A stretch of 64,000 nt of DNA from Hyphomonadaceae bacterium (GTDB taxonomy: Bacteria > Pseudomonadota > Alphaproteobacteria > Caulobacterales > Aquidulcibacteraceae), in NCBI GenBank assembly GCA_019753105.1, contig JAIELJ010000010.1:124001-188000 (forward strand), read 5' to 3'. This document shows positions 26,459 through 39,374 of the stretch, piece by piece; the stretch's first letter is position 1, and every line of letters starts with the position of its first letter. Both the position numbers and the translations under genes were made by a program. The notes under the pieces are model-generated. The model did no database searches. It saw only the letters and a list, made by a program, of their open reading frames with translations, and was not told the origin of the DNA.

Positions 26459-26705
26459 AAGTACCTCCCGCGCTCGGCTTCAAAGGCGACGCCGGCGTCA
26501 TTTTTGATTTTCACGCTGTTGAAACATGCCCGCGCCCTGGCCGCAACCGGTGCGGGGCTGCTTGTCGCTAGGGCAGTGGCGGCTGTGCAAAACTCTGCGT
26601 CCACGCGCTAACCGACAGAACTTTGCCGGAATTTAATGGTGGTTGTGAGGGGCGCGAAGCTCAGGCAAGCATGTGCACCCTGAGCGGGACGGGAGACGCG
26701 CGGAC

Positions 26706-29700
26706 ATGGCCTTCGATTGGAAAGCGCTCGCGGAGCGCCTCGACCCGCGCAAACTCAATTGGTCTTGGGCAAAGCCCGCCAACGACTGGATGGTCGCCAA
26801 CCGCACCGCGGTGCTGGCGGGCTCGCTCTCGCTGCTCGTCGGCCTTTGGGGCGGGGCGGTGTTGGGCCGGGTCTCTGCCGGCGCGCCGGCTTTCGATCTC
26901 GCCTCGCTCGGTTCGATCGGCGCGCAGGAAGCGGCGCGTGGCGCGGGCGCGCCGCGTGCGGGTCTGCCGCAAGTTGAAGGCATGGCGTTCGTGCGGCTGC
27001 GCACCGAGATGGATGAAGCCGAGCCGCGCGCGTGCTTGGAGTTCTCGAAAAATCTCTCGACCGACGCCTCGGTCAACTACGCCGACTATCTTGTTCTCGA
27101 TCCGGCGACGCCGATTCAGATCGATGTCTCCGGCAATCTGCTCTGCATGGGCGGCTTGCCGTTCGAGCCGGAGCGCCAGCTCACCGTCCGCGAAGGCTTG
27201 CCGTCAGCCAGCGGCGAACGCACCGAAGCGGACGAGACCTTCACGCTCACCTTCGGCGATCGCCCCGCTTATGTCGGCTTTGCCGGCGGCGGCGTGATCC
27301 TGCCGCGCTCGGAAGCGGACGGCATCGCCATCGAAACCGTCAACGTTTCGCGCATCGAAGTCGAAGTGCTGCGCGTGCCGGATCGTATCCTCTCGCAGCA
27401 ATATATCGGCGAAGGCGAGACCAATTCCGAAGGCGGTTGGGAATATTGGGGCTTTGAGAACGCTGGCTCGGATGTTGGCGTCCAAGTCTATGAAGGTGAA
27501 ATCGACGTCGATATTGGCAACCGCCGCAATACGGCAGTGACGACAGTCTTTGCGCTGGGCGCGGCGTTGCGCGAATTGCGGCCCGGCGCTTACATCGTGA
27601 AAGTCCGTGACGCATCCCCGAGCGCTGGTCAGCGCGGCAATAGCGAAAACGATAGCCGCGCCTCGTCGTACCGCTGGATCATGTACACGGACATGGCGTT
27701 GCAGAGCTTCTCTGGCGCCGATGGCCTTGATGTTGTCGTGCGTTCGCTGCGCACGGCGCGTCCGATGGGCAACATCACCTTGACGCTGATTGCGCAGAAT
27801 AACGACGAACTCGCGCGCGCCCGCACCGATAGCGAAGGCCGCGTCCATTTCAACGAAGCGCTCGTTAACGGCGACGGCCCAGCGCGTGCGCGCTACGTGA
27901 TGGCCTATGGCTCGGAAGGCGATTTCGCAGCACTCGATCTGCAACGTCCAAGCCTCGATCTTTCCGATCGCGGCGTCGATGGCAGGCGCGCGCCTGGCGA
28001 TGTCGACGCGTATCTCTACACCGAGCGCGGCATCTACCGCCCCGGTGAACGCGTTCGCCTTATCGGCCTGATCCGCGACCAAGTCGGTCGCGCGATTGCC
28101 AACCGGCCCTCGACGCTCGTTGTCTATCGCCCGAACGGCACCGAAGCCCGCCGCATCCGCATGACGGAAGCTGTCGATGGCGGCGCGATTGCCAAGAACA
28201 TCGATGTCGATCGCCGTGCGCCGCGTGGCGTTTGGCGTGCGGAGCTGATCGTTGACGGCCAGGAGGCCGTGGCGGGCAGCGTTAGCTGGTCTGTCGAAGA
28301 TTTCGTGCCGCAGCGTCTGCGCGTGCAGATCGAAGCGAGCGAGGCTGTGCTGCGCTCGGGTCAGACACGGCCGATCAACGTGCAGGCTGACTTCCTCTAT
28401 GGCGCGCCGGGCTCTGGTCTCGCGGTCGAGGCCGAAGGCCGCCTGATGATCGACCCGAATCCGTTCCCGGACTTCGAGGGCTATTCATGGGGCCGCGCCG
28501 ACGAAAGCTTCGACGAGCGCTTCTTCCAACTCCCCGGCACGGTAACGGACGGCCAAGGTCGCGCGCAGCTTTCGCTGCAGCTGCCGGATGAGCCGACCAC
28601 CACACTGCCGCTGCGCGCGCGCATGCTGGCGAGCGTCGCCGATCCGGGCGGCCGCGTCGTGCGCGAGAGCTTCACGGTGCCGGTGCGTCTGAACAACGTC
28701 TATCTTGGCCTTAGCGCTCAATTCGAGAACCGCCGCGCCGGCGCAGGCGAACGCGTCGCGTATGATTTGATCGCCGTGAACGGAGATGGCCGGCGCGTCG
28801 CGCAACGCGGTGTGCAGTGGCAGCTGGTCCGCGAAGATTGGAGCTATGATTGGTATCTCGACGGCGGCTCATGGCGTTGGCGTCGGACTGGCCGTGACAT
28901 TCCGGTCGATGGTGCAACTGTTGACGTCGCCGCCAATGCGCCGCTGCGCATCGCGCGCGATGGTCTGCGGGCGGGCTCGTACCGCTTGATCGTGCGCGCC
29001 AACGGCACAGAGACCTCGCAACGCTTCGGCGTCGGCTGGGGCGGCCCGGCCGATGACGATCAAACGCCGGATATGGTCAGCGTCGTTGCGCCGACTGATC
29101 CGACACGCCCAGGTGCCCGCGCCCGCGTGCAAATCCGTCCGCCTTATGCGGGCGAGGCGCAAATTGTGGTCGCTACGGATCGCGTGATTGAGACCCGCAC
29201 CGTGCGCGTCAGCGCCGAAGGCACGACCATCGATCTGCCGGTGACGGCGGAGTGGGGCTCGGGCGCTTACGTGCTCGTGACTGTCATGACGCCGCGCGAT
29301 CCGGTGAACCTGCCAGTACCGCGCCGCGCTGTGGGCGTCGCGTACGTGCCTGTCGACATGGGCAGTCGCACGCTGACCGTGGAAGCGGGCGCTGGCTTGC
29401 AAAACGTGCGTCCACGCACGCGCATTGAAGTGCCGGTGCGTGTCACCGGCGCGCCGGGCGGTGAGCGTGTGCGTGTGGCGATCGCTATGGTGGATGAGGG
29501 TATCCTCGGCATCACGCGCTATGAGAGCCCGAACCCGGTCGATTACTTCTTCGGCCGCCGTGCGCTCGGCGTCGATATTCGCGACGATTACGGCCGGTTG
29601 CTCAATCCAAACCTCGGTGCACCCGCGAACGCGCGCCAAGGCGGTGACTCGATCGGCGGCGAAGGCCTCACCGTCGTGCCAACGCGCACGGTGGCGATTG

Positions 29701-31736
29701 TCTCAGACATCGTCGAAGTGCGCGGCGGCCGCGCGGTGATCCCGGTCGATATTCCGGATTTCAACGGCACGCTCCGGCTCATGGCCGTGGCGTGGAGTGA
29801 GTCCGCGCTTGGCCAGGATGCGGAGCAGATCATCGTCCGCGATCCAGTCGTTGCCGAACTCATCTTGCCGCGCTTCCTCGCGCCGGGTGACGAAGCCCAG
29901 GGCACGTTGAACATCGACAACGTCGAAGGCCCCAACGGCGCCTATACCGTGACGGTCAGCGGATCGAGCACAGCGCGCATTCAATCGCAACCGCGCCGCT
30001 TCACGCTCAATCGTGGCCAGCGCCAAACGGCGCTTATCCCGATCGCAGGCGGGCCGCTTGGTGTCGGGCAGATTTCGCTCAGGCTAGAAGGCCCGCAAGG
30101 CTTTGCAGCGGTGGAGCGGACGTACGACATCCAGTCGCGTGCGCCGTTCATGCCGATCACGATCACATCGACCGCCCCGCAGAATGCCGGTGAAAGCTGG
30201 CGTGCGCCGGCGGACGCGCTCTCGCGCTTTGCGCCAGGCGCGCAGGCGTTGATCTCGTACTCGAATCTGGCTGGCATCGATCCGGCGCCGCTGTTGGATG
30301 AGCTTTATCGCTATCCTTACGGCTGCTCGGAGCAGATGACGTCGGTGGCGTTGCCGCTGCTCTATTACAACATTCTCGCCGCTGAGGCCGGCCGCGAGAC
30401 CGATCCGCGCATCCGCCGCCGTGTTCAAGAAGCGGTGACGACCTTGCTCGATCGCCAAGCGCCTGATGGCTCGTTCGGCCTCTGGCGTGCGGGTGATGGG
30501 CAGGCATCGCCATGGCTCGGCGCCTACGTTGTCGACTTCCTGCAGCGCGCGCAGGCGCAAGGCTACGCGGTGCCGCGTCAGCCGATGCAGCAAGCCTATG
30601 CGGGTCTGCGCCGCGTGGCGCGTCTCAACGATTTCGGCGGCGTGAACTATCAGTTCGAGGTCTATCGCTGGCCGGGTTCGAATGACTCGCAAGAATTGTT
30701 GCGCTCACGCGCCGCGGCTTATGCGCTCTACGTGCTCGCGCGGGCTGGCGAGGCCGATATCGGCCAAGTCCGCTACTTCCACGATGCGCGCTTGCGCGAT
30801 GAGCCGTCGCCACTTGCACGCGCGCAAATCGGCGCAGCGCTAGCGCGCTTGGGTGATCGCGCCCGCGCGCGCAACGCCTTCCGCCTCGCGGAGCAAGCGC
30901 TTGGCTATCGCAACACCGGTGACTGGTATCAGACGCCGCTGCGCGATCTTTCCGGCGTGCTGGCGCTTGCGGCGGAAGCAGGCGAGACCGAACTGGTTGA
31001 TCGCTTGCGCCGCCGTCTCGAACGCGACGCGCCGGAAGCGGGCCGTCTGATGACGCAAGAACAAGTGCGCTTACTGCTTGCAGCCAGCGCTTTGCTTGAG
31101 CGCGCAGGCCCCGTGAACGTCACGCTCAACAACGAGCAACTCACCGAGCGCCGCATCATGGTCAACGCGCAGCGTCTGACCCAGGGGCTCGTCTTCCGCA
31201 ACGCCGCGCGCGGGCCGGTGTGGCGTACGCTGCAAACCTCGGGCGCGCCGCTTGAGGCGCCGCCCGCAATGCAGGCCGGCTACACGATCGATAAGCGCGT
31301 CTATCGCCTCGATGGCTCGACAGCGGATCTCAACAACATCCGCCAAGGCGATCGCGTTGTGATCGTGATTTCGGGTCAGCCTGAAGGTGCGCGGAATTAT
31401 CCGACGGTGCTGGTCGATCTCTTGCCGGCGGGTTTGGAGATCGAGACGCTGCTCAACCCCGAAGATGGCGGCGGTTCGCTCTACGATGGTCGCGTGCGCA
31501 ACGGGCCGTTCGCTTGGGTGGGCGCCATTTCCTACGCGCAAGTGCAGGAAGCGCGTGACGATCGCTACGTTTCCTCGGCGGATCTGCGCGGTTCGTTCCG
31601 TTACGCCTACATCGCGCGCGCGGTTTCGCCGGGCCGCTACACGATGCCGGCGGCGCAGGTCGAGGACATGTACCGCCCCGGCGTGATGGCGCGCACGGAC
31701 ACCGGCTCGATCCGCATCGCGCCGCGCGGAGGCTAA
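26706..31736 (+). CDS. Bacterial alpha-2-macroglobulin family protein
   Basis: The start at 26706 (MAFDWKALAERL) is used; a GTG 33 bases upstream is possible. The 1676-residue protein has an N-terminal membrane anchor (TAVLAGSLSLLVGLWGGAVLG) rather than a lipobox, then tandem MG domains. The MG2-type stretch includes YLYTERGIYRPGERVRLIGLIRD. The thioester motif is CSEQ with Cys1207, followed by the TED helical domain. The family traps proteases in the periplasm, where the thioester links covalently to attackers. It is followed nine bases later by a PBP1C gene, the classical partnership, in which the pair is thought to protect and repair the wall after outer-membrane breach. Confidence 0.92.
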   Translation: MAFDWKALAERLDPRKLNWSWAKPANDWMVANRTAVLAGSLSLLVGLWGGAVLGRVSAGAPAFDLASLGSIGAQEAARGAGAPRAGLPQVEGMAFVRLRTEMDEAEPRACLEFSKNLSTDASVNYADYLVLDPATPIQIDVSGNLLCMGGLPFEPERQLTVREGLPSASGERTEADETFTLTFGDRPAYVGFAGGGVILPRSEADGIAIETVNVSRIEVEVLRVPDRILSQQYIGEGETNSEGGWEYWGFENAGSDVGVQVYEGEIDVDIGNRRNTAVTTVFALGAALRELRPGAYIVKVRDASPSAGQRGNSENDSRASSYRWIMYTDMALQSFSGADGLDVVVRSLRTARPMGNITLTLIAQNNDELARARTDSEGRVHFNEALVNGDGPARARYVMAYGSEGDFAALDLQRPSLDLSDRGVDGRRAPGDVDAYLYTERGIYRPGERVRLIGLIRDQVGRAIANRPSTLVVYRPNGTEARRIRMTEAVDGGAIAKNIDVDRRAPRGVWRAELIVDGQEAVAGSVSWSVEDFVPQRLRVQIEASEAVLRSGQTRPINVQADFLYGAPGSGLAVEAEGRLMIDPNPFPDFEGYSWGRADESFDERFFQLPGTVTDGQGRAQLSLQLPDEPTTTLPLRARMLASVADPGGRVVRESFTVPVRLNNVYLGLSAQFENRRAGAGERVAYDLIAVNGDGRRVAQRGVQWQLVREDWSYDWYLDGGSWRWRRTGRDIPVDGATVDVAANAPLRIARDGLRAGSYRLIVRANGTETSQRFGVGWGGPADDDQTPDMVSVVAPTDPTRPGARARVQIRPPYAGEAQIVVATDRVIETRTVRVSAEGTTIDLPVTAEWGSGAYVLVTVMTPRDPVNLPVPRRAVGVAYVPVDMGSRTLTVEAGAGLQNVRPRTRIEVPVRVTGAPGGERVRVAIAMVDEGILGITRYESPNPVDYFFGRRALGVDIRDDYGRLLNPNLGAPANARQGGDSIGGEGLTVVPTRTVAIVSDIVEVRGGRAVIPVDIPDFNGTLRLMAVAWSESALGQDAEQIIVRDPVVAELILPRFLAPGDEAQGTLNIDNVEGPNGAYTVTVSGSSTARIQSQPRRFTLNRGQRQTALIPIAGGPLGVGQISLRLEGPQGFAAVERTYDIQSRAPFMPITITSTAPQNAGESWRAPADALSRFAPGAQALISYSNLAGIDPAPLLDELYRYPYGCSEQMTSVALPLLYYNILAAEAGRETDPRIRRRVQEAVTTLLDRQAPDGSFGLWRAGDGQASPWLGAYVVDFLQRAQAQGYAVPRQPMQQAYAGLRRVARLNDFGGVNYQFEVYRWPGSNDSQELLRSRAAAYALYVLARAGEADIGQVRYFHDARLRDEPSPLARAQIGAALARLGDRARARNAFRLAEQALGYRNTGDWYQTPLRDLSGVLALAAEAGETELVDRLRRRLERDAPEAGRLMTQEQVRLLLAASALLERAGPVNVTLNNEQLTERRIMVNAQRLTQGLVFRNAARGPVWRTLQTSGAPLEAPPAMQAGYTIDKRVYRLDGSTADLNNIRQGDRVVIVISGQPEGARNYPTVLVDLLPAGLEIETLLNPEDGGGSLYDGRVRNGPFAWVGAISYAQVQEARDDRYVSSADLRGSFRYAYIARAVSPGRYTMPAAQVEDMYRPGVMARTDTGSIRIAPRGG

Positions 31737-31745
31737 GGAGCAAAG

Positions 31746-33812
31746 ATGCGCCGCGGCCCGCGTGTCGCTCTTCCCTTAACCCCCAACGGCAAGCGTTGGG
31801 GGTGGGCGGTGGTCGCTGTGCTGCTGACTTTGTTCAGCCTCGACGTGCTCTTCCCGCCGCCACTGTCGCGCGTGCGCGATGTGTCGCCGGTTGTGCTCGA
31901 TCGCAACGGCGAATGGCTGATGGCCTTCACGACAGGCCAAGGCACGTGGCGCCTGGAGGCGCGGCTCGATGAAATCGATCCGGAGTTTCAGCGGCGTCTG
32001 ATTGCGATTGAAGACGAGCGCTTCTGGTTTCACCCCGGTGTCGATCCAATCGCCCTGACGCGCGCCACTGTGTCTTACGCACGCTCCGGCCGTGTTACTC
32101 AAGGCGGCTCGACCATCACCATGCAATTGGCGCGCTTGCTTGAGCCGCGCCCGCGTACGATCCAATCGAAGCTGATCGAGATCATCCGCGCCATCCAGAT
32201 CGAGCGCCGCTGGTCGAAGCGCGAAATTCTCGCGGCCTATCTCACTATGGCGCCCTATGGCGGCAATCTCGAAGGCGTGCGCGCCGCCAGCCGCGCGTAC
32301 TTTCAGCGCGATCCCGTCTGGCTTGACGACGCCGAGATGGCGCTGCTGATCGCGCTGCCGCAAGCGCCCGAAGCGCGACGGCCAGATCGCCGGCCCCAAG
32401 CCGCGCGCGCTGCGCGTGATCGTGTGCTCGGTATGTTCGTGAGCGCGGGACTGATCAACGAACGCCGTGCAGCGGAAGGCCGCGAAGTCGCGATGCCGGC
32501 GCGTTCGCCATTCCCGTATTCCGCGCCGCACGCCTCGTACGCGTTGGTGCAGCAGCACCCGAGCCAGGGCGTGATCCAATCATCGCTCGACGCGACCTTG
32601 CAGCGCGATCTTGAAGCGCTCGCGCGTAGGCATGTCGCAGGGCTTGAGCGCGATGCGCAGATCGCCATTCTTGCTGTGCGGCTGGACGATCGCACTGTCC
32701 GCGCCCGCATCGGCGGCGCCGGCACGGATCGCGCAGGCGGCTACATCGATATGACGCGGGCGATCCGCTCACCCGGCTCGGCGCTGAAGCCGTTTCTCTA
32801 CGCGATCGCGTTCGACGAAGGCATAGCCGCGCCGGAGACCCTCGTGCGCGATGCGCCGCGGCGTTTCGGCGGCTATTTGCCGGAGAATTTCGATCGGCGT
32901 TTCCACGGTGATGTCACGCTCGAAGATGCGCTGCGCCACTCGTTGAACCTGCCAGCTGTCGCCACGCTTGAGCGCATCGGCGCTAATCGCTTTCACGCAG
33001 CGTTGCGCCGCGCCGGCGCCGACGTGCGCCTGCCGCGTCGCGCGATTGCGGAACCCGGGCTTGCGCTCGCGCTTGGCGGTGTGGGTATGACGCTGGAAGA
33101 TCTCGTGCAGCTCTATGCGGCGCTCGGCGATGGCGGGCAGGCGCGGCCGTTGGTTGTGGATGCAGAGCCGGGGCTATCCTTCTCGCGTCGCTTTGTGCGC
33201 GAGGACACGGCTGAGCGTGTGCTGGAAATTCTTGCGTCCTCGCCGCATCCGGCAGGGCGTGTGCCATCCGTCGTCGCGCAAGGCGCGCCGAGCGTCGCAT
33301 TCAAGACAGGCACATCCTACGGCTTCCGCGATGCGTGGTCGGTGGGCGTGGCCAACGGCTATGCGATCGGCGTTTGGGTTGGCCGCCCTGACGGCGCGCC
33401 GCGTCCCGGCGCCACAGGCCGCAGCGAAGCGCTGCCGGTTTTGTTCGAAGCTTTCGATTTGCTCGGCGCGCCGGGGGAACCGCAGCGCCGTGAACGCGAG
33501 GATGAAGACGCAGCGCCCGGCATCGCGCGGTTGGAGACCGAGCAGCAGGAGGGTTTGTCCATCCTCTTCCCGCCCTCCGGCGCCGAAGTGCTGGTGCTGG
33601 ACTATGGCGCACAATCGCGCGGGCTCTCGCTCTCGGCGCGCGGCGGGCGCGGGCCGCTGACTTGGTATGCGGAAGGCGAACGCGTCGCGAGCGAGCCGAC
33701 AAGCGGTCGCTCGATTTGGCGCCCAAGCGCGCCCGGCTTCTATGACGTCACCGTGGTCGATGCGAACGGCGAAAGCCGCAGCGTGCGCGTGCGCATTCGC
33801 AACAGCGGATGA
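31746..33812 (+). CDS. pbpC: Penicillin-binding protein 1C
   Basis: The 688-residue bifunctional murein synthase has one N-terminal span (about 18-37). A glycosyltransferase GT51 domain (about 60-240) has catalytic Glu in [12 protein letters not shown] and [15 protein letters not shown] transpeptidase domain has the serine box [10 protein letters not shown] (SxxK), SLN and [14 protein letters not shown]-terminal BiPBP_C domain of about 90 residues follows. This layout is specific to PBP1C. It is co-transcribed with the alpha-2-macroglobulin gene upstream and followed by a strong terminator. Confidence 0.94.
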
Positions 33813-33827
33813 TCCCGAAATGCTGAA

Positions 33828-33862
33828 GGCGCGGACCTTGGGAGGAAGGTCCGCGCCTTTTT
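33828..33862 (+). terminator. Rho-independent terminator after pbpC
   Basis: GGCGCGGACCTT (33828-33839) pairs with AAGGTCCGCGCC (33846-33857) around a six-base loop, followed by five T. It ends the alpha-2-macroglobulin/pbpC transcript. The sequence TGCTGAAGGCGC at its left shoulder recurs exactly at the terminator at 39341-39352. Confidence 0.9.
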
Positions 33863-33892
33863 GCTGATCGTGCCGTCGGGAGGGGGAAGGAC

Positions 33893-33985
33893 TTAAGCGA
33901 CGATCAGCGCAGCTTGATAAAGCGCTGCAAACGCGAGCGGTGCAAAGAGCACGACCGCTGCGAGAAGAGCGAGTGCTTTGGACAT
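33893..33985 (-). CDS. Micro-protein of 30 residues with C-terminal QAALIVA (copy 1)
   Basis: A frame too short for usual ORF calling runs from ATG at 33985 to TAA at 33893. An excellent ribosome site (AAGGAG, six bases before ATG) supports translation. The product is one hydrophobic helix: MSK, then about 20 residues rich in Ala, Leu, Val and Phe with a central Pro (LFAPLAFA), and the end LYQAALIVA. Two other frames in this window (34157-34261 and 39172-39264) end in LQAAQIVA and NQAAQIVA, and share the basic start and the central F-x-P region. That similarity is the main evidence. It may be a membrane peptide or a secreted signal-peptide-like product; function unknown. Confidence 0.7.
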   Translation of the reverse strand: MSKALALLAAVVLFAPLAFAALYQAALIVA

Positions 33986-34098
33986 TGTCGGCTCCTTTCT
34001 TGGTTGACGTTTGTTGACTGAAAGATGCGGGCAGGCCCGCGTTTGGATGTGCGCTTTGTCTCGTTTTCAGCGCCGCTCGTCTGGTGCTTTCGGGCAAG

Positions 34099-34131
34099 AA
34101 AAAGGCGCGAGCCGCAATCGCAACCCGCGCC
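34099..34131 (-). terminator. Rho-independent terminator after micro-protein copy 2
   Basis: Read on the minus strand, GGCGCGGGTTGC pairs with GCGGCTCGCGCC (34104-34131, with some G-T pairs), followed by five T (34103-34099). It lies 26 bases beyond the stop of the tiny gene at 34157-34261, which supports that gene being a separate transcription unit. Confidence 0.75.
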
Positions 34132-34156
34132 TCTCTTGGATCGTCTTGACGGGGGA

Positions 34157-34261
34157 TCAGGCGACGATCTGAGCGGCTTGCAGGAGCACAGCGGCGACGA
34201 TCGGGACGAAAAGCGCGAAGGCCGTGGCGAAGCTGGCGGCGAAGATTGCGATCTTGTTCAT
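34157..34261 (-). CDS. Micro-protein of 34 residues with C-terminal QAAQIVA (copy 2)
   Basis: The frame runs from ATG at 34261 to TGA at 34157 and gives 34 residues. A ribosome site AGAGGA lies five bases before the start, and a hairpin with T-run follows the stop. The product begins MNK, continues as a hydrophobic stretch with Phe and Ala and a central Pro (ALFVPIVAA), and ends LLQAAQIVA. The last seven residues are identical to copy 3 at 39172-39264 and differ by one from copy 1 at 33893-33985. It lies 171 bases from copy 1 on the same strand, each with its own leader. Function unknown. Confidence 0.72.
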   Translation of the reverse strand: MNKIAIFAASFATAFALFVPIVAAVLLQAAQIVA

Positions 34262-34370
34262 GGCGTCCTCTCAGAACTCGGTATTTCGTGGCGTTTGACT
34301 ATGAGATGCCACCCCCGCGCCGCTTGGATGCGGGCGTGGTGAATTTTTCTTGGTGACGTTTTGGACGGCG

Positions 34371-39033: not shown

Positions 39034-39171
39034 CGGCGCTAGCTACACGCCGCGCTTGCGCTTGAGCAAGGCGGTGCGGCTCCGTGACATCCGTCACAGC
39101 GACATAACCAACGCCCTATTACCTTCATCTCATCGGATCGATGGACGGTCCGGGTTTGAAGGAGCCAGGAA

Positions 39172-39264
39172 ATGTTGAAGTTGTATGCCCTCGTCGCCGC
39201 TTTGGCCGTGTTTGCCCCCGTTGCGTTCGCGACGCTGAACCAAGCCGCTCAGATCGTTGCGTAA
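39172..39264 (+). CDS. Micro-protein of 30 residues with C-terminal QAAQIVA (copy 3)
   Basis: The frame runs from ATG at 39172 to TAA at 39264. A strong ribosome site (GAAGGAG, seven bases before ATG) and a terminator at 39348-39374 frame it as its own small transcription unit. The product begins MLKLY, continues hydrophobic with a central Pro (VFAPVAFATL) and ends NQAAQIVA. It is clearly related to the two tiny genes at 33893-33985 and 34157-34261 that lie 5 kb away on the other strand. The VFAPVAFA/LFAPLAFA block shared with copy 1 resembles a signal-peptide end. Function unknown. Confidence 0.75.
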   Translation: MLKLYALVAALAVFAPVAFATLNQAAQIVA

Positions 39265-39347
39265 TGGGTTTCAGACCTGACCTTTCCCAGGCCGGCAACG
39301 GCGCAAGAACCAGGCTGAAGTCCTTATGAAATTCCAAGAGTGCTGAA

Positions 39348-39374
39348 GGCGCCGGTTGTCCACCGGCGCCTTTT
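39348..39374 (+). terminator. Rho-independent terminator after micro-protein copy 3
   Basis: GGCGCCGGT (39348-39356) pairs with ACCGGCGCC (39362-39370) around a five-base loop, followed by four T. It lies 83 bases after the stop of the tiny gene and upstream of the radical SAM gene. The left shoulder TGCTGAAGGCGC is identical to that of the pbpC terminator. Confidence 0.85.

Follow-up and report, generated by a model that had tools for sequence, protein, structure and literature searches.

Short hydrophobic peptides with a conserved QAAxIVA end form a multicopy family, probably linked to a CRP-like regulator, in alphaproteobacteria

Small open reading frames encoding hydrophobic peptides of about 30 amino acids, with a conserved QAAxIVA end, form a paralogous family in genomes of one GTDB family of alphaproteobacteria, relatives of Caulobacter. 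Three of them lie in the 64,000-nucleotide stretch of DNA analysed here, referred to as the window. The peptides are probably membrane micropeptides with a working tail, most units of which would be controlled by a CRP-like activator. Support from sequence analysis comes from the family itself, coding selection, conservation of the tail, promoter geometry, a leader hairpin and the co-occurrence and partial linkage of a candidate regulator.

The three open reading frames are present in the window exactly where an earlier reading, made from the sequence alone, had placed them (Table 1). The peptides have lengths of 30, 34 and 30 amino acids and C-termini YQAALIVA, LQAAQIVA and NQAAQIVA in copies A, B and C, respectively. 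The Shine-Dalgarno (SD) sequences of these frames are AAAGGAG, AGAGGA and GAAGGAG; the sequence-only reading had described AGGA-type ribosome sites. Two of the copies had been credited with their own terminators; a GC hairpin was found behind all three, with a clear T run in two and a weak one in the copy at 33893. Copies A and B are convergent to a gene that we take, from its sequence, to be pbpC, and copy C sits between folB and a radical-SAM gene. The pbpC-like gene (31746-33812, plus strand) is preceded by a very long open reading frame (26673-31736, plus strand), presumably alpha-2-macroglobulin-like.

Table 1. Features of the three micropeptide units in the window; type 2 denotes the GCATCC-N16-GCATCT promoter
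Feature	Position	Strand	Basis
Micropeptide copy A, 30 aa, MSKALALLAAVVLFAPLAFAALYQAALIVA	33893..33985	-	Profile match, E 1.3e-9; syntenic beside pbpC
Type-2-like promoter of copy A, ACATCC-N16-GCATCT, one mismatch to GCATCC	34023..34050	-	Read from sequence
3' region of copy A, with CCTCCC-loop hairpin at 33826-33859	33823..33901	-	Hairpin search; sub-threshold Rfam CcsR1
Micropeptide copy B, 34 aa, MNKIAIFAASFATAFALFVPIVAAVLLQAAQIVA	34157..34261	-	Profile match, E 9.4e-6
Type-2 promoter of copy B, GCATCCAA..GCATCTC	34303..34331	-	Pattern match, G000:C10:158303-158331
Terminator-like hairpin of copy B	34096..34132	-	Read from sequence
Candidate CRP-like operator of copy C, GTGACATCCGTCAC	39084..39097	+	Pattern match, spacing analysis
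-10-like TACCTT of copy C, 22 nt behind operator; predicted start ~39132	39120..39125	+	Sequence, spacing
Predicted 5' leader hairpin of copy C	39134..39152	+	Fold of locus L019; stem enrichment
Micropeptide copy C, 30 aa, MLKLYALVAALAVFAPVAFATLNQAAQIVA	39172..39264	+	Syntenic beside folB and radical-SAM gene
Terminator-like hairpin of copy C	39346..39374	+	Read from sequence

The family proposed from the window is real, and its count of three was far too low: there are many more copies, often in tandem, and they share a conserved promoter, a leader hairpin and, in part, a terminator loop. A six-frame search of the genome that carries the window (G000) with one 30-aa copy gave 19 places at E ≤ 10 and 17 at E ≤ 0.05, and a profile search found 18 copies. 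One of these, a follower at G000:C2:213020-213100 (minus strand), is interrupted by an in-frame stop before the tail. An identical peptide is encoded at three loci of this genome.

With a profile cut-off of E ≤ 0.001, 36 of the 60 GTDB-family genomes have copies, representing five of 14 genera; a family-bearing genome contains 1 to 24 detectable copies, usually about ten, single or in tandem. Among 398 genomes sampled across the order, 37 match, which are the same 36 and G370, marginal at 7.1e-4 only. A class-wide sample at E ≤ 1e-4 gave one match in 385 genomes, the window's own genome, and none beyond the GTDB family. The named records in which copies were found bear the labels Hyphomonadaceae, Caulobacterales, Caulobacteraceae, Terricaulis sp. 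or simply Alphaproteobacteria. The fetched loci hold 235 copies with distinct 150-nt ends (those with the same 150 nt were counted once), a set that still includes at least one spurious open reading frame (L145, 27 aa) and one broken follower (L002); 61 gaps between neighbours are shorter than 70 nt (median 32 nt) and 42 are 70-500 nt. On the complete 4.18 Mb chromosome of G023 (CP096134.1), all 24 matches listed fall within one half, at 2.15-4.15 Mb, unlike G020 and G027, whose matches are spread over the genome.

The window copies are found at syntenic places in many species. One to five copies are present in the pbpC neighbourhood in 19 fetched loci, including genera g20 and g8, and of the copy-bearing loci fetched, 16 contain the radical-SAM gene, six of these together with folB; loci for synteny and for regulator linkage were fetched for holding a copy or a regulator and are a non-random sample. 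As judged by sequence comparison, the peptide loci are old. Homologues and codon bias, the absence of which had been named as evidence against a protein family, are both present. Comparing 30-aa copies in 62 disjoint pairs gave a pN of 0.075 and a pS of 0.307, a ratio of 0.24, and in the same pairs pN/pS drops to 0.09 over codons 24-30, which encode QAAxIVA. Chance resemblance is ruled out by copy number, synteny and codon selection together. A mobile element was also considered and appears unlikely: in L009/L010, the best duplicate pair, the alignment extends from about -80 to +300 relative to the start codon, approximately the length of a transcription unit, and inspection of the duplicate ends by eye showed no obvious terminal or target-site repeats.

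The three window peptides have no match in Pfam, NCBIfam or PADLOC, and one match in PHROG, at E 0.54. A literature search gave no paper with QAAQIVA, QAALIVA, NQAAQIVA or TLNQAAQIV, a statement that extends to these four strings. In literature naming Terricaulis or Vitreimonas, no title or opening of an abstract evidently concerned such peptides.

The copies appear to be short autonomous units, consisting of a promoter, a leader, an open reading frame or pair of frames and, in most, a terminator. Promoters were tallied after 60 of the 235 copies, which lie directly behind another (<70 nt), were set aside. The palindrome GTGAC-N4-GTCAC, with at most two mismatches, precedes 123 of the remaining 175 copies (110 have it alone and 13 together with GCATCC-N16-GCATCT); 41 have GCATCC-N16-GCATCT alone and 11 have neither promoter, a few of these 11 being followers whose partner went out as a duplicate. 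Copy A is tallied as having neither because of its one mismatch. Among 124 box copies, 117 have exactly 22 nt between the end of the box and a -10-like TANNNT. With the hexamer placed at -12 to -7, the box is centred at -41.5 and overlaps the -35 region. The site in class II CRP promoters is centred at about -41.5. Overlap of the site with the -35 region is described for this class in the accessible part of one source (PMC5449483). GTGAC-N4-GTCAC is a predicted class II activator site.

The operator pattern GTGACNNNNGTCACNKC has six sites in G000, all six at family copies. Matching by hand gave 7 of 8 sites at family copies in G023, 6 of 8 in G027, 8 of 15 in G020, 4 of 11 in G071 and 6 of 10 in G078, where some copies are weak profile matches; these six genomes, all with peptides, together have 58 matches, of which 37 lie at family copies. 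No operator match was found in the peptide-free G064, and a backward control pattern has 10 matches over all seven genomes. By these matches, the candidate operator is concentrated on the peptide family.

A second group of units would use the different promoter, GCATCC-N16-GCATCT, for another condition. All 54 matched copies have a spacer of 16 in a search that allowed 14 to 19. This promoter is not exclusive to the family, as two of six exact GCATCCAA-N(12-18)-GCATCTC matches in G000 are at family copies; judged from the pattern matches, it is a wider promoter class. The same pattern precedes other genes at L122, L123, L124 and L127 (G000:C8:85772, C8:120017, C9:84345 and C16:12508), some presumably lipoprotein-like and some ABC-transporter-ATPase-like open reading frames. 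In the available part of one paper, GCATCCAA is the -10 of ECF29 promoters, which have GGGAAC as -35 (PMC6180224). An ECF29-type promoter was rejected here, as GGGAAC or GGAAC was found within 30 nt upstream in none of 40 copies with the exact motif. GCATCC is not given as a -35 consensus in the accessible parts of two papers found with this word.

The leader displays a predicted hairpin at its start. Of 112 distinct leaders, 61 have in their first positions the beginning of a perfect stem with a score of 6 or more (each G-U pair counted as half), compared with 1.4 in shuffles, and the stems use several different arm pairs (such as TCGAAGCG/CGCTTCGA, TCGGATCA/TGATCCGA and TCGGGGCG/CGCCCCGA). 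MAFFT misplaced at least two leaders, and stem enrichment was used rather than a covariation count. The SD is more paired than in controls: the mean unpaired probability of GGAG is 0.26 in the 112 leaders and 0.40 in 159 controls. This contradicts an open SD for strong translation and is a misfit with simple high-level translation.

A search for the activator, in which nine genomes were scanned for PF13545, yielded a candidate regulator of 229 amino acids at G000:C11:15945-16634 (minus strand). Relatives are present in G023, G071, G078, G079 and G081, and no close relative was found in G064, G073 and G033. The protein has a cNMP-binding domain (PF00027, 63.8 bits, cut-off 27.5) and a Crp-type helix-turn-helix (PF13545, 50.7 bits, cut-off 27). 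Its best solved relatives are Crp/Fnr-family chains (E 6e-26), which we take to be M. tuberculosis CRP, and it scores 63 bits with the E. coli CRP equivalog NF008732, below the cut-off of 266. All 29 orthologues read share an identical RIGASREKVNRKL and contain GEMA[VA]LDGG.RSAD; these open reading frames were chosen by a pattern already demanding [SA]REK[VL]N. The recognition segment is the same in G078 and different in the G079 and G081 orthologues. E. coli CRP has an RE...R contact pattern. The candidate operators contain GTGA-N6-TCAC, the CRP-family form being TGTGA-N6-TCACA, and the regulator would bind this box with cAMP or cGMP as putative ligand. Most units are probably activated together by this CRP-like cyclic-nucleotide-binding protein.

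The regulator is found at E ≤ 1e-50 in 35 of the 60 family genomes. Both regulator and peptides are present in 33, peptides alone in 3, the regulator alone in 2 and neither in 22, numbers that are weaker than they look because co-occurrence follows phylogeny. The genomes with peptides and without the regulator at this threshold, G012, G013 and G069, have completeness values of 91, 79 and 83%. G081 and G082, with the regulator and no detectable peptides, have no boxes or peptides in the 6-7 kb around the regulator.

The surroundings of the regulator were read in 33 genomes, and 12 of these have a family copy no more than about 2.6 kb away; the downstream stretch read varied from about 0.1 to 4 kb, and a further locus, in G015, gave no intact open reading frame. 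A rough estimate of ours puts the chance level at 1-3% per gene. The linked cases are 8 of 29 within about 1.5 kb, three at about 2.5 kb (G027, G009 and G006), and G078. In G001 and G011 the linked copies are truncated, ending before QAAxIVA, and no box was matched. Linkage is absent in the other 21 genomes, three of which (G005, G019 and G023) have a box and no recognisable peptide. In G078, box, peptide and regulator are consecutive on one strand; the peptide stop is about 10 nt before the longest regulator open reading frame, in which translation probably begins only about 55 codons downstream.

CgrA of Rhodospirillum centenum is likewise an alphaproteobacterial CRP homologue; it senses cGMP and has the site TGTGA-N6-TCACA. 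According to the accessible text, disruption of CgrA alters 258 genes and encystment (PMC4681086), whereas the operator described here is concentrated on one peptide family.

The form of the peptides was assessed from an alignment of 211 distinct sequences, grouped by locus into 180 from the home genus and 31 from other genera. In the home genus, Lys or Arg is at position 3 in 175 peptides, Pro16 is present in 176, Q24 in 176 and A25 in 178. In the other genera Pro16 is present in only 13 and Pro20 in 16, with A25 in 28, I28 in 27 and V29 in 26. A small-protein family conserved at its C-terminus, as first proposed, is borne out by small residues at 25 and 26 and a hydrophobic one at 28 in 175 of 180 home-genus and 30 of 31 other peptides. 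The further proposal, that the tail is conserved rather than a cleavage site, is correct for the tail; for the site it applies to the other genera, where small -3/-1 residues at 18/20 (A-x-A) are kept in 10 of 31, and fails in the home genus, where they are kept in 159 of 180. Small -3/-1 residues at one site, as expected for Sec cleavage, are not conserved across genera.

For 212 distinct peptides, the mean best 19-mer KD is 2.14, and there are 8 acidic and 253 basic residues, the basic ones mostly at position 3. A single-sequence structure model, which is weak evidence for 30-mers, displays one helix at residues 2-29 (pLDDT 91.9, pTM 0.42). A membrane-anchored helix fits best because the tail is kept while A-x-A is mostly lost outside the home genus. 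The peptide would most likely be a single inner-membrane helix, N-in/C-out, with the QAAxIVA end as its working surface, in keeping with the earlier suggestion of a membrane peptide or of action via the tail. The constraint on the tail and a polar Gln in a helix of small residues suggest packing with a membrane partner or with itself, and in our view the peptide may act by packing against membrane protein complexes or by oligomerising within them. Many copies and rigid promoters suggest that the peptide is needed in quantity when the second messenger rises.

The Ldr, Ibs and Fst type I toxins are hydrophobic peptides of similar size, present in several tandem copies and defined by an antisense RNA antitoxin. 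The micropeptides, which have no profile match in the libraries tried, are like these toxins in size, hydrophobicity and tandem multicopy layout, and by prediction they too are short hydrophobic single helices. It is possible, if rather doubtful, that they damage the membrane once RNA repression is lifted; this function would be compatible with the proposed regulon, the two not excluding each other. The unusually paired SD is consistent with such control. TimP, a 38-aa membrane toxin of Salmonella, is similarly very short, with a signal-sequence-like N-terminus, an inner-membrane location and a predicted site apparently uncut; it differs in having Leu at -3, in its repression by the sRNA TimR and in its toxicity when overexpressed, and neither a CRP box nor a QAAxIVA tail is among the features reported in the accessible part of the source (PMC7667032). 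Against toxin function are the two-ORF units, which share one apparently activated promoter, and the strong constraint on the tail, which we would not expect of a simple pore former.

The same alignment bears on secretion. Small -3/-1 residues, a Pro and an N-terminal Lys or Arg are the textbook layout of a signal peptide, and the home genus has all three, with Pro at 16. A 20-residue Sec signal might be cut after A20 to release a decapeptide, such as TLNQAAQIVA, as a periplasmic or extracellular signal. The tail that such a cut would leave holds the most constrained codons, and cleavage may be shifted, as A-x-A is found at some other position in 172 of 180 home-genus peptides and 31 of 31 others. 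Other genera, however, keep the site in a minority and have Pro20 in 16 of 31, yet retain the tail almost throughout, and some home-genus copies carry V, T, P or I at 20; a secreted signal is considered improbable. Lipoproteins have an invariant Cys after the lipobox, and this possibility was rejected with Cys at position 11 in a minority of peptides, 54 of 180 in the home genus and 4 of 31 elsewhere.

The transcripts may carry information in their RNA as well. Terminator-like hairpins were found behind 129 of 169 last-in-unit copies and not behind the other 40. CTCCC is in or at the terminator loop in 48 of the 129 (39 of 92 box-type and 9 of 37 other units), compared with 1 of 50 hairpins in the window control, that one being copy A's own. 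The window control is quoted because a flank control, with CTCCC loops in 7 of 257 hairpins, held unmasked family terminators after duplicate removal, all seven being family terminator sequences or duplicates. In 31 of 124 box-type units CTCCC also lies no more than 20 nt from the stop, and GGAGC occurs more often in family SDs (107 of 138) than in controls (47 of 155). Rfam scans gave sub-threshold matches only, many of them to families that are clearly unrelated; matches on or over family 3' ends were to CcsR1 at two loci, ar14 and ar7, all far below gathering. The match of copy A's 3' region to CcsR1 (RF02791) is weak, at 24.9 bits (gathering cut-off 65.3, E 0.007). Long hairpins at L096:6709-6859 (G-rich), L095:3187-3318 and L110:6519-6613 matched Rfam microRNA models below gathering and are probably unrelated inverted repeats.

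These loops, 3' matches and SD sequences would fit transcripts that are primarily CcsR/cuckoo-like small RNAs acting through CUCCC loops, with the peptide secondary. Such a role may partly coexist with the regulon; as the primary one it is unlikely, given that the loop is in a minority of units, that some lack a recognisable terminator, that Rfam scores are far below gathering and that codon selection is strong. Predicted pairing of the loop with family SDs does not exceed that with control SDs (-9.55 and -9.95 kcal/mol), and the terminator loop as a specific antisense to family SDs was rejected. The loop and SD data are leads to post-transcriptional control, not proof.

Within the preferred explanation of membrane micropeptides under a CRP-like activator, a more elaborate form is conceivable though not likely, a genome-wide dual-function battery in which each cyclic-nucleotide-controlled transcript provides both a membrane peptide active through its tail and a regulatory RNA with a CUCCC loop, and in which a CRP paralogue chiefly targets this family. 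VcdRP, a dual-function RNA encoding a 29-aa protein, similarly has a tiny open reading frame and an RNA element in one transcript and is tied to CRP; the available text describes repression by CRP, and binding of the VcdRP protein to citrate synthase, as points of difference (PMC8672173). The CcaF1-CcsR system of Rhodobacter also has an alphaproteobacterial small protein co-transcribed with small RNAs, CcsR. It differs, as far as the accessible text describes it, in that CcaF1 is a 71-aa DUF1127 protein expressed from an RpoH promoter (PMC10253847), and the micropeptide units are below the Rfam CcsR cut-off.

Annotation readily misses membrane proteins as short as these, and the peptide family appears to be unrecorded; an entire regulon of small proteins seems to have escaped notice. 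If the proposed control is correct, the regulator would in our judgement be an unusual member of the CRP type, largely devoted to 30-residue peptides. With a candidate regulator and a defined operator in hand, one regulator deletion would make the function of a small-protein family directly testable.
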